From Dillenia suffruticosa (taxonomy: Eukaryota > Streptophyta > Magnoliopsida > Dilleniales > Dilleniaceae): a DNA stretch of 64,000 nucleotides. The DNA is taken from NCBI GenBank assembly GCA_033439265.1, contig JAVTVX010000010.1, forward strand, positions 11,702,001 to 11,766,000, given 5' to 3'. Both the position numbers and the translations under genes were made by a program. The notes under the pieces are model-generated. The model was not told the origin of the DNA and did no database searches. It saw only the letters and a list, made by a program, of their open reading frames with translations. Shown here piece after piece: positions 31,701-37,700 of this stretch. Position 1 is the first letter of the stretch, and each line of letters begins with the position of its first letter.

Positions 31701-34700
31701 CACATATTTCATAGATGAGGACATCATGTCAGTTTATTTAATTTATTATTTCCCAATGGTTAAAATTGTTTATCTCATTTGCTTTAATGAATAAGCACTG
31801 ATGTCATCATCGACGTGTTCGTGAGTTAGAGAAATTTGCGGATTTTTCATGCAATCGTATTCAAAGTATACTTTTCAGCCAGGAGGAATACTAGCATTTA
31901 ATTATATGTCTTAGGCCAAGAAAAATTATTTTCCATTTGTTGTTAGGCTCGATTTAATTATAGTCCTAGACCTTACGGATGGCTCGTTCTATTGTCAAAG
32001 ATGTTCAGTGGAGATATTGACAATAAAAATAGTGCAGTGGGCTCAGTTGAATAATAAAACAAAAATAAATATATGAAACAAGAAGCTAGGAGGTAACAAG
32101 GCATCATTTCCCCTACCGCATGCCCTCGAAATTTCTCACGGTCAGCATCAGTTTTAGCCTCAAATTTCTCAGCATAATATCTTTCCTTCCAACCATCTTC
32201 TCCTAGTTTTACCTGCAAAATAACAACCTAAGTTGTCAAAAAAAAGGTTTTTTTTTTAAGGAAAAAAAAAGGTTTTTTTTTTTAAGGAAAAAAAAAGGGT
32301 TTTTTTTAAGGAAAAAAAATTTTTTTAAGGAAAAAAAAGGGTTTTTTTTTAAGGAAAAAAAAAAGGTTTTTTTTTTAAGGAAAAAAAAAGGTATGCATGG
32401 GTCTTGAAAGATTAAAGACAAGAAAATAAACCTTGTCTTCATCAACTTTTGGATTGTCAGTTGTAGAGTTAACTCCCTCCACGTTAAGCTGATTCAATTT
32501 TATAGCAAAAAAGATGACAATTTTATAGCAAAAAAGATGAAAAACATAATGAATCTCCATCAACCACGATCCAATATCACACACTGAATAATCACATCAT
32601 AGGGAATACTCACAATTTCTGGATCTTGACAAACTGACATGCCATTCATATTAGAGGATGAGAAACTCTTAGACCTTTTCTTCTTCTTATCTTTGCATGA
32701 GTTTTTCAGATTCAGCAAGTGTTGAAAACGTTTTTCCCTTTCCTGGTGAATCTGAACAAGGGTTATGCATGCATCAGGATCTTAGCCAAGTGAATAATGT
32801 AATCACAAAGATAATAAATCTGATAATTACTCTTCTAGAAACAAACTCTACTCAACTAAGCGTCAAATGAGGCTTCAAATAAATCCAATAAATATCAACA
32901 AAAAAAAAGTTGGATAACCCATTTTCATATGTAAACAGGCAAAATTAAGGTACAACCCTCTCCAACCCTCCCTCCAATAATTTAACCACCAAACGGGATT
33001 TATTCAAAAAAGCTAACTTGAATGGACACTTCGATGAAGAATCTGTGCCCATGTCGAGTTTTCTTATACACTACATTCCCTCTCACATTGATGAAAAAAT
33101 TTGGCGAAGTATCAACATCTACACTCTCTCTCACACCACCTCCAACCCCCAAAAGTACACAGTAGAGAGAGGAACAAAGAAACAAGGAAACCTAGTAACA
33201 AGACTCAAACCAAAGCCACTTACAACCTAAATAAGATTTATAAGAAAAAAATAAGTTTTGCACATGGACATTCATATGATTATCACCGAATTTACTGACA
33301 GCAGTTAATGTAACCGTGAGTTGACATGCCTATTGAGTACACTCTTATTGTGTCCTTCTGTCCATACATCATAGTTCAAGACCAAGTGTAAGTTCACCAT
33401 GAGCATTTAATAGAGTACGAAAACCCAATGCAATTAACTTGAAGGGATTTTGAAGGAGGAAGCCTTAGAGATCACAACACATGCCAAAATGCAATAAACT
33501 TAAATTGCAAAAATCAGGGGCGGAGCCGGGTACTCTCTTGAAATTTTTTTTGTCTTAGGCATAAAATTTTTTCTTAGTCACTCTCTCTCTCTCTCTCTAA
33601 CTTTCTTGTTGGAATTATTATTCCTTCAATTTCAATAGATGTTGCCGTTAACTTCACAGGTAAGTCAGGCATGTCATCAAACACCTCATATGCCATCTCC
33701 TTCTGTCTCTCACTAAACTTTCAAATTGGTTTCAGATGGAATGTTCAAGGGAATCCACAATGGCAAGCAATGTCAGTTGCAGATATTTAGACTGTTCAGA
33801 GCAGAGCTTGTAGTGCTGGTGTTGATAGAATCATTGTAAGACTCGCTCTATTCCAAGTTGTGGCTTATATTGAATATTTATATATTTGGCAAATGGCAAT
33901 TGAACTAGAGGGTCTTCTTGTAGGTTGCTGGTGGGTCTCTTGAAGAATCAAAGGAAGCTCTTGCCATTGCAGAAACTGATGGTTGGTTGAATGCTTTTAC
34001 CACTTGTTTCTAAATTTTAATAATGGTTTTGGTTTGAATCATGAAGTATTTTGGTGTTTACTGCAGGAAGGATCTTCAGCACCATAGGTGTGCACCCAAC
34101 AAGATGTAGGGCTGTCAATGTTTAATTATGTTTCATTTTTCTGTATGCTCTCTATAAGGAGTGTTCTCATGTAGTTTGTTCATGCCTCAATTAGGAATTT
34201 GAAGAGAGTGGGGATCCTGAAAAGCACTTTCAGGCACGTTTGTCCTTGGCTAAAGAGGGAATTCAGAAAGGAAACGTAAGTTGGATTCTTTCCGATTGAT
34301 TAATGATGTCGCTTTTGCAATGTTTTATGTTTTGATGTATACCATATCACTACCTTTTGAGGAAAGCACTTGCAGAGATGTCATCATGGTGTAAAATGGG
34401 TGTATTCTATATTTTGTATAACAGGCATGTGCTAGCTTGAAGCAAATACTTGCAACCAATTGGCTATTCATGAGAAAATCATTTAAACAAAATTTCCAGA
34501 CGATGTAAGAAATGAATGCATGTGAGAACTTACAAGTAAATTCAACAAGAGATGAATACGAGGTAGATTGCGTAGAGAACAAGTTGATTTGACACTGGAA
34601 CACTTTTATCGAAGTGAAATTATTATTGCTACAATAAGCTATCAGTTGAAGGAGTTGAATAGAAGATTTACTGAGCACATAACATAGATCCTTATTCTTA

Positions 34701-37700
34701 GATCTGGCTTGAGTCCAAAAGATGGTTTCAAATCATTTAAAATTAATGACATATGTTGTTTGGTTGAGAAATTCTATCCTTTAGATTTTATTGAACAAGA
34801 GCGAATTCATTTGAAAATTCAATTGCAACATTATGAGTTAGCATTAAAACATGAGGATTTTTAAAATCTAATGACTATTTCAGAATTGTGCAATAAGTTG
34901 GTGACAATTGGGAAATAAAAAATTTATCATTTAGTTGATAGATTGATTCGTCTTATTTTGACTCTCCCAATTTCAACAGCAACTAGTGAATAGGCTTTCT
35001 TAGCAATGAAGATTTTGAAGACAGGACTACGGAACAAATAAAAGATGAATATCTTGTAAATAGTTTAGCTTTTTATAATGAAAAAGAAATTTTTTGTATT
35101 TTTAATTCAAAATCAATTATAAATGAATTTGAATCAATGAAAAAGTGTAAAACATAACTTTCATAAATTACGTACTTTGTTTAACATTTTTTTAATTAGA
35201 ATTATATAAATTTTTAATATATTTTTATTTTATAATTTTTATTAATTATTGCTTTACGGCCTCCAAGAAAAATTTTCTGGCTCCACGCCTAGCAAAGAGC
35301 ATCCATGTTTTCCCCACTTTTATATATATGACATACATTAATGTTTCACGTTTGTACTGACAACCCATGAAATCATATGATTGAAGAGAAGGAAACTCAC
35401 CCTGAGGTTTTTCTTCTATCTTTATCTGAATAAAGATATTTGTTCATTTAAAACAACAAAAAACAGAAAGAGAAGCACTAAGGAGGTGCAAACCTAAACA
35501 AACTACAATGACGACTCCACAAGATCGACAACCTCTAAAAAGAATGAAACTACTAGGCAAACAATCAAAAAAGCAATGACTGAAGTTCTGCACCTTGAGG
35601 ATGACAATAATACAACAAAACAAGCCATGGAAATAGCTTCTACAACCACAAGCTAATTAATGGTAGAAAACCATTTTGAAGAAGGGGAAAGATGAGGTTG
35701 GAAAGAAAACCTTATTACGTCTTCTAAAGATTGCACCTTCATGACATCCCAAAGCTTTTACAAAATGTTCCACGCGTTCCAAATTTATCTACAAATAATG
35801 ATCAGTACATTGTGATATAAACATCAGATATTAAAAAATTACAAAGAATTATTCAAAAAGTGAACATCAATGATAAAAGTAATTTTTCAATTGTAAAGAA
35901 ATGGAAAAATGTGTAAATACAATGGCCAGCAATCACAAGTTCAGAGGTTCTAAGATAGCCAAGCCTATCAAAATATAATTAATAGCAATAACAAGGTAGT
36001 TGAATTAAGCATATCGTACCAGTCGAAAGATGCAGTTCTTAAGAAGCTTGAAAAACTAACATAGCAAGAAATATTTAAAATTATCTCAAATTCATTGCAT
36101 CACATGTTTTTAACTTTTACAGTTGCATTTTAATTTTTCAGGTTGGGTACCATAGCTTAAGAGACGCAGAAACAAATAAATTTGAATTGCACTGAAAATT
36201 TTATTGAGGATGGCTTTGTCAAATGAGTCCTGGGGGGGAGAAATTGTTTATTAAGCACTATCTATGTCAAGAAACAATGGATCTGTTTCTCATTGCAAAT
36301 TCATTGTGATCAGACTCAAAATTCCGGAAGGTGGTTTACTAATTCCTGGCTTGCATCGAGTCATTGCAGGTCCATCGAAGTACAGGCAAAAGGCCTCAAG
36401 AAGTGATATGTATCCTATGAAGCGCTCTCACCACGTTAAGACTTCTTTTCTCACGAAAATTCATGGGCTTAGGGTTTTCTACACCCTTCAAAGCTTCATA
36501 TCCCCCACTATAAACTCTACTCTGGAAAATCTTGTACTAATAACAGCTTCTACAAAGAAAGGTAGGGTGTCATAGGTCAACTCTGGACTCCCCCCCGAGT
36601 ACTTGAAAACACATTCAATGGAGAGGATAGCCCAAAGTGCTTCTGTGGAAGGTGGACAGACTTTAGATGCTGCACCAGTCACCATGAGGAAATTAAAGTT
36701 GAGAACGAACGAGATTTTTGTGAATTGTTTGAGTGATTAGCACCCAGCACAAATATACTATTACTTTTATCATTATATATATGTCAGATACTTTATTTCA
36801 AGTTGACATTTTTCTGACAATTATATTTCTGTAGTAGCATGAACAGAGATCAAAAGCATTGGAAAAGAACACTATCAGTTTTTGAAATTGCTTACTATCA
36901 TTTTTGAAATTGCTTTAAGAAATTGTATTTATCTTGCATGGATATCCTCCTCTTCCTACCCACTTTCTCATGGGTTGGGTTACCATGGAGTGGCAGAATG
37001 TGACTTTAAAGGCCTTGACTGTTTTGTGGGAAATCAGTCTTCCACGAAAAATATTTTCCAGTTTTGGGGGAAAATATTATATATTTGAACATCTTATTTA
37101 TTTAGATTTAGGAGTCTCACAAATTCCATTCACCAGACCTAGTAGACAAGAAATGACTTCAGCATTTACTATATAGAAGTCACTTTCCTTAAATTTGCAT
37201 TGGCTTTTCTTATGAACTTGACTGTATTATTCCCTGTGGTGTGCTTCCTCCTTTCAATTCTATTTAAAGCCAAATTAGTTATCAAATGATATAATTCCTT
37301 GCCATACATCACTTAACCAAAGTTCTATTCTGCCTTCCTCAACCTCTTGAATATCTTCTCATAACTGTGGACCAAAATGTCTTCTTTCAGTCTGTTTCTC
37401 CCATTTTATCATCGATAGGAACAACTTCTGAACTTTCCCTAATACAATTATTTTTAATCCTGTCTTTTCTCTTCAACACAATTATCCATCATAGCATTTT
37501 CATCTGGAAATTTCTGTGCATGATATATTCTAATTGTGCAATATTCTCTACCATAAAGAAATAAATGAAAGAAAAAATTCCATGGACCAAATTTTGCAAC
37601 CAAATGCAGGAAAACGATTTGCTTTCTGGGAAGTGAAAACTGGATTTCCATGTAACAAAGACAGCCCTATACCATGTTCATGATGAGTGATGGATCTTTC

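Follow-up and report, generated by a model that had tools for sequence, protein, structure and literature searches.

A TatD gene segment between the ends of a non-autonomous hAT element in an XRN intron of Dillenia suffruticosa

How did pieces of a TatD gene and the tail of a hAT transposase come to lie together within an intron of a gene for XRN, an RNA-degrading enzyme? The question is raised by a unit at 33515–35291 of the window, by which we mean the whole 64,000-nucleotide stretch of Dillenia suffruticosa DNA analysed here (C10:11702001–11766000 of a 596-Mb assembly in 37 contigs, within which all genome searches were made). A sequence-only reading had described this unit, at about 1.78 kb, as a Pack-type hAT. 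We measured 1,777 bp between the target duplications and confirmed that the unit is a gene-carrying non-autonomous hAT element (Pack-hAT).

Structure of the element

The element consists, in order, of a hAT left end of ~57 bp, 0.98 kb of TatD DNA and a 732-bp hAT right end (Table 1). CAGGG-type short TIRs are a trait of the hAT superfamily, and the termini at this locus, 13 nt each, pair at 10 of 13 positions, imperfectly as previously claimed, with comparable termini found in relatives. With up to 2 mismatches allowed, the left 13-mer occurs once within the window, as an exact match, where 0.12 occurrences are expected; at least one such match was seen in 12 of 100 shuffles. A target duplication is present and its 8 bp fit a hAT insertion, but the earlier description of the two copies as near-identical was generous, since they agree at 6 of 8 bases. 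The TatD piece and the hAT tail are both on the + strand, antisense to XRN, which is on the − strand. What lies between the TIRs is a fragment of a host gene, as in Pack-TYPE elements, and a matching TatD gene is found on C13.

Table 1. Features of the element and of the neighbouring XRN exons, in window coordinates.
Feature	Position	Strand	Basis or remark
Left TSD, gcaaaaat	33507–33514		Read directly; single GCAAA at the empty paralogous site
Left TIR, CAGGGGCGGAGCC	33515–33527	+	Read directly
hAT left end, family-like up to CATAAAATTTT	33515–33571	+	Alignment with 7 relatives; blast to L043 and L044
Left junction zone, ahead of the (CT)n tract in TatD intron 1	33572–33577	+	
TatD gene segment, from the end of intron 1 to within intron 6	33578–34559	+	BLAST-aligned 33578–34552, last bases by eye
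TatD exon 2 remnant	33639–33659	+	
TatD exon 3 remnant	33736–33835	+	1-bp deletion and TGG to TAG stop
TatD exon 4 remnant	33924–33981	+	
TatD exon 5 remnant	34067–34110	+	
TatD exon 6 remnant	34195–34275	+	
Right junction, GAG	34560–34562	+	Common to the TatD intron and 5 of the 9 hAT relatives printed; by eye
hAT right end, including a broken remnant of the transposase C-terminus	34560–35291	+	
Right TIR, GGCTCCACGCCTA	35279–35291	+	Read directly
Right TSD, gcaaagag	35292–35299		Read directly and by empty-site alignment
XRN exon upstream of the host intron	35711–35788	−	
XRN exon downstream of the host intron	32614–32751	−	

The captured TatD segment and its source

The captured gene, one for a housekeeping nuclease, is of the TATDN1 type, and the five pieces with introns that had been recognised from the window alone proved to be five + strand exon remnants. 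Their joined conceptual product matched TatD_DNase at 30.3 bits (cut-off 27), and two single TatD exon frames sent alone to Pfam had no match. Exons and introns follow one another in their genomic order, as expected of any copy made at the DNA level, including one in which a hAT element later inserted into a segmental or pseudogene duplicate of TatD and captured nothing. For the window copy we rejected such a nested insertion or duplication as extremely improbable: TatD homology is confined between the TIRs and sits between both hAT ends, the 500 bp of flank on either side of the element have no match to the C13 and C4 stretches, and the paralogous XRN intron described below is empty between the TSD copies.

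Searched alone against the genome, the TatD segment matched the window, C13:18819920–18820856 and C4:7133700–7134301, three places in all (3 of 3 candidates scored). Locating a donor gene had been proposed as a check, and the C13 gene answers to it, agreeing with the window at 856 of 929 ungapped positions and having both the exons downstream of the captured part (by tblastn) and an upstream first exon, the latter recognised by eye only. Its exon product matched TATDN1 in PDB (8efg, E 1.5e-59), which we take to be the human protein, and TatD_DNase in Pfam (E 1e-35). The same gene also has, at L031:2621–2665 within an intron, a short copy of part of the exon that follows (15 aa, 73%).

A lost pseudogene or paralogue could have been the source in place of the C13 gene, which would be compatible with the history we propose and which we regard as rather unlikely. 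The stop codon common to the window and C4 copies could predate capture, but besides C4 the genome search found one other gene with DNA of the TatD segment, and a further TatD-family match ~153 kb past the window's end (L055, C10:11919299–11921240; two pieces, one with an internal stop) does not match the C13 product at the protein level, with E up to 1 allowed. With no DNA match either, this C10 place was rejected as a nearby donor.

At the left junction, which adjoins a CT microsatellite, the element tracks the hAT family as far as an AT-rich motif and then passes into TatD intron 1 at its (CT)n tract. The GAG at the right junction is possibly a microhomology, judging from the aligned bases.

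hAT ends and relatives

The left end in the window is short of ~20–30 bp that relatives have. When the 73-bp left end was searched by itself against the genome, the window was the only match, with common words skipped by the search, and hAT left ends were therefore sought within fetched relatives. DNA of the right end was found at 74–89% identity and in varying lengths at no fewer than 37 other places in addition to the C4 copy (40 of 225 candidates scored). Larger flanks were fetched for 18 of the 37, and seven of the 18, picked for a TIR-like or left-end-like stretch, make up the left-end alignment. Terminus and AT-rich motif are both kept in five relatives, with terminus agreement at 11 (L037), 10 (L038), 8 (L039), 10 (L043) and 11 (L051) of 13 bases; L044 is without the terminus, and L042 has it at 12 of 13 bases but diverges at the AT-rich motif. 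The interior of L042 was tried as a further capture and set aside as a repeat, with at least dozens of matching rows (40 of 3685 candidates scored). The sequence-only reading had asked for other elements sharing both ends. TatD-free relatives with similar left and right ends do exist, and the genome search with the TatD segment found no TatD-bearing copy with both hAT ends besides that of the window, so that the objection this reading had tied to both ends is not strictly dispelled.

In L037, a relative of 3.45 kb, ~2.7 kb separate the left terminus from the position at which the tail of the window element starts, and this part includes a DUF4371 match over cut-off (E 2.4e-11). It is missing from the window, where 0.98 kb of TatD stands instead, and this fits the earlier proposal that the captured gene replaced the N-terminus of the transposase. 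The tail itself had been read as a broken hAT transposase end in the same sense as TatD, and it probably is such a remnant. Its match to Dimer_Tnp_hAT is weak (E 0.0019, 18.4 bits) and below the cut-off of 21.4, and of three tail frames sent alone to Pfam two gave nothing relevant and the third no match. It aligns over 162 aa (34.6%, E 5.7e-25) with a 212-aa hAT-like frame in L053, whose own Dimer_Tnp_hAT match is also below cut-off (E 0.00064). This frame is upstream of the matched tail of L053 itself and might be part of a different element. Among frames of at least 90 aa on one strand that end past base 2200, no intact hAT transposase was found in the 18 fetched relatives; a 963-aa frame in L054 is presumably a LINE reverse transcriptase, going by its motifs. 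Six right-end copies among the matches listed (329–343 bits) lie 26–42 kb apart at C11:4531992–4714154, all on the − strand, which suggests a segmental duplication array carrying a hAT remnant.

The host intron and an empty paralogous site

The location in an XRN intron was borne out by the flanking XRN exons and by matches to XRN_N or XRN_M in four of the five open frames sent to Pfam. The joined product of both exons and part of a third matched six PDB sequences weakly (E up to 0.1; best E 0.0022, whole sequence), all of them named 5′-3′ exoribonucleases, and the single stretch spanning the splice junction had by itself no significant PDB match. Close to XRN exons, 32207–32407 is a short repeat, one frame of which reads as FFFKEKK-type units.

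Besides itself, the left flank (32800–33514) matched only C10:25520220–25521066 in the genome, in three pieces, and the right flank (35292–36200) matched C10:25521069–25521881, in two pieces at 87–88%, as well as two weak places elsewhere. Both C10 matches fall in a paralogue of XRN (C10:25519800–25523300) that lies on this contig ~13.8 Mb away from the window and aligns piecewise at 69–88%. The left-flank match stops at window position 33511 (C10:25521066) and the right-flank match begins at 35298 (C10:25521069). In the alignment the paralogue reads AAATTGCAAACCAGCATCC where the window reads AAATTGCAAAAAT-element-GCAAAGAGCATCC, with one copy of GCAAA and no element in the former and two copies in the latter. 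Excision of hAT elements often leaves a doubled target, and none was seen in the paralogue in this alignment. The insertion of the hAT element into the XRN intron is real, supported by the TSD and the empty paralogous site, and as the paralogous intron is empty it took place after the XRN duplication. A check for an empty site in related species had been proposed; the one found is in a paralogue within the same genome.

The empty site dates the insertion and not the capture of TatD, and the capture may have taken place at the XRN locus. In that case a plain hAT element in the XRN intron would have taken up TatD by gap repair, and the C4 copy would be a later daughter. This course is a variant of our best explanation and compatible with it. 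The empty site tests insertion only, and for most single-copy Pack-TIRs of animals gap filling without transposition is the reported origin (PMC8277862, in the part of the text available), whereas here there are two chimeric copies. Nothing decisive speaks against capture in place, although the C4 copy shows the chimera to be present elsewhere too, and we give it a real but minor chance.

A second chimera on C4

At the C4 locus, TatD DNA (query 72–694) is joined directly to the hAT right end (query 1671–1777). A search for other copies with the same ends had been recommended, and this chimera shares the right end, while the left end is gone. Its left side is a repeat with 41 further matching rows, and the coding remnant to the left of TatD is, we assume from its motifs, Copia-like. 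The flanks of the two chimeras are unrelated, and an intact coding frame is absent from both.

The three TatD segments have identities of 535/584 (window and C13), 530/583 (window and C4) and 538/585 (C13 and C4), close to a star, with C13 standing apart at 19 sites, the window at 25 and C4 at 23, and all three differing at 5. Since the segments are near-equidistant, any shared history of both chimeras was short. The near-equal distances would suit a history in which one hAT family took up TatD twice, independently, once for the window copy and once for the C4 copy, as would the joint of TatD and hAT on C4, which is unlike that of the window, and the C4 right end, which is not clearly sister to the window's. 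In the last 115 bases of the right end C4 ranks third by bit score among 29 rows (28 distinct places), and a sisterhood of C4 and window by right-end identity was dropped because C4 is not singled out. Against two captures, both copies start at the same (CT)n tract, one internal deletion can explain the C4 joint, and both share a stop codon together with two other changes that can be polarised. The window equals C4 against C13 at 10 exon sites, six of them synonymous and four protein-changing (I2V, W26stop, T43A and R51K). W26stop must be the derived state, I2V and T43A are polarised by C13 and by TATDN1 in PDB, which have I and T there, and R51K is ambiguous, as TATDN1 has K at that position. 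A rough Poisson calculation, in which hitting the same base is given an assumed factor of 0.5, puts the chance of parallel exon changes at 0.005 for three, 0.035 for two and 0.22 for one (the stop alone). Two independent captures appear quite improbable to us.

Unrelated flanks and common derived changes in two chimeras, of which that on C4 has incomplete ends, would favour mobilisation after capture, a point that the empty site alone does not show. One capture with early decay and at least one later move is thus favoured, though not certain. Our best explanation, which we consider likely, is that a member of an old hAT family gained TatD, decayed, and moved as a chimera at least once, with copies in the XRN intron and on C4. 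Most of the interior of the hAT element would have gone, and a stretch of ~0.98 kb from a TATDN1-type TatD gene would have been acquired between the short left end and the 732-bp right end, probably by interrupted hAT repair with template switching to TatD. The captured piece would have decayed, gaining the stop codon, and transposase supplied in trans would have mobilised the chimera at least once; either site may have been occupied first. That the frame scan of the 18 fetched relatives showed no intact hAT transposase counts against this history. The C4 copy would afterwards have lost its left end and 0.98 kb of its interior.

Comparison with known gene-capturing hAT elements

Gene capture by hAT elements is already known in plants, and the window element adds one member. 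The earlier remark that hAT versions are described less often is weakened by hATs with captured introns and exons already in print (PMC2528002 and PMC8903248, as far as the available portions of these papers go). In Hatvine-6, a grapevine hAT family, the variable part often matches host introns and exons (PMC2528002). Compared by description, Hatvine-6 and the window element are alike in being hAT elements with common TIRs, transposase sequence and host-gene cargo, but the cargo of Hatvine-6 varies across the family, whereas here there is one TatD fragment in two known copies and a broken transposase tail only (PMC2528002).

Pack-hATs have been reported in maize and rice by packFinder, and these share with our element a non-autonomous hAT build, an 8-bp TSD and captured gene sequence (PMC8903248). 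Unlike them, the window chimera has a 732-bp decayed right end, and as the packFinder pipeline treats any element whose transposase match exceeds 250 bp as autonomous, it might be filed under that heading (PMC8903248). Our case suggests that chimeras with a transposase remnant could escape automatic Pack-TYPE annotation. We would put forward only as a speculation, and a doubtful one, that gene-capturing hATs with a transposase remnant form a partly hidden class, that plant Pack-hATs are undercounted because this classifier puts elements with a transposase match to one side, and that genes are commonly captured between a left end that is short and a right end that is long.

Among animal Pack-TIRs, 208 of 370 are hATs, and microhomology is described at many of the breakpoints (PMC8277862). 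The likeness to our element lies in a hAT with host gene fillers, and a multicopy Pack-hAT is known from a frog (PMC8277862). What the present locus contributes is a well documented single hAT capture, for which the matching TatD gene, a second chimera and an empty paralogous site are all found in one genome. Elsewhere in the window, the − strand at 24892–26010 holds a 372-aa open frame of imperfect repeats.
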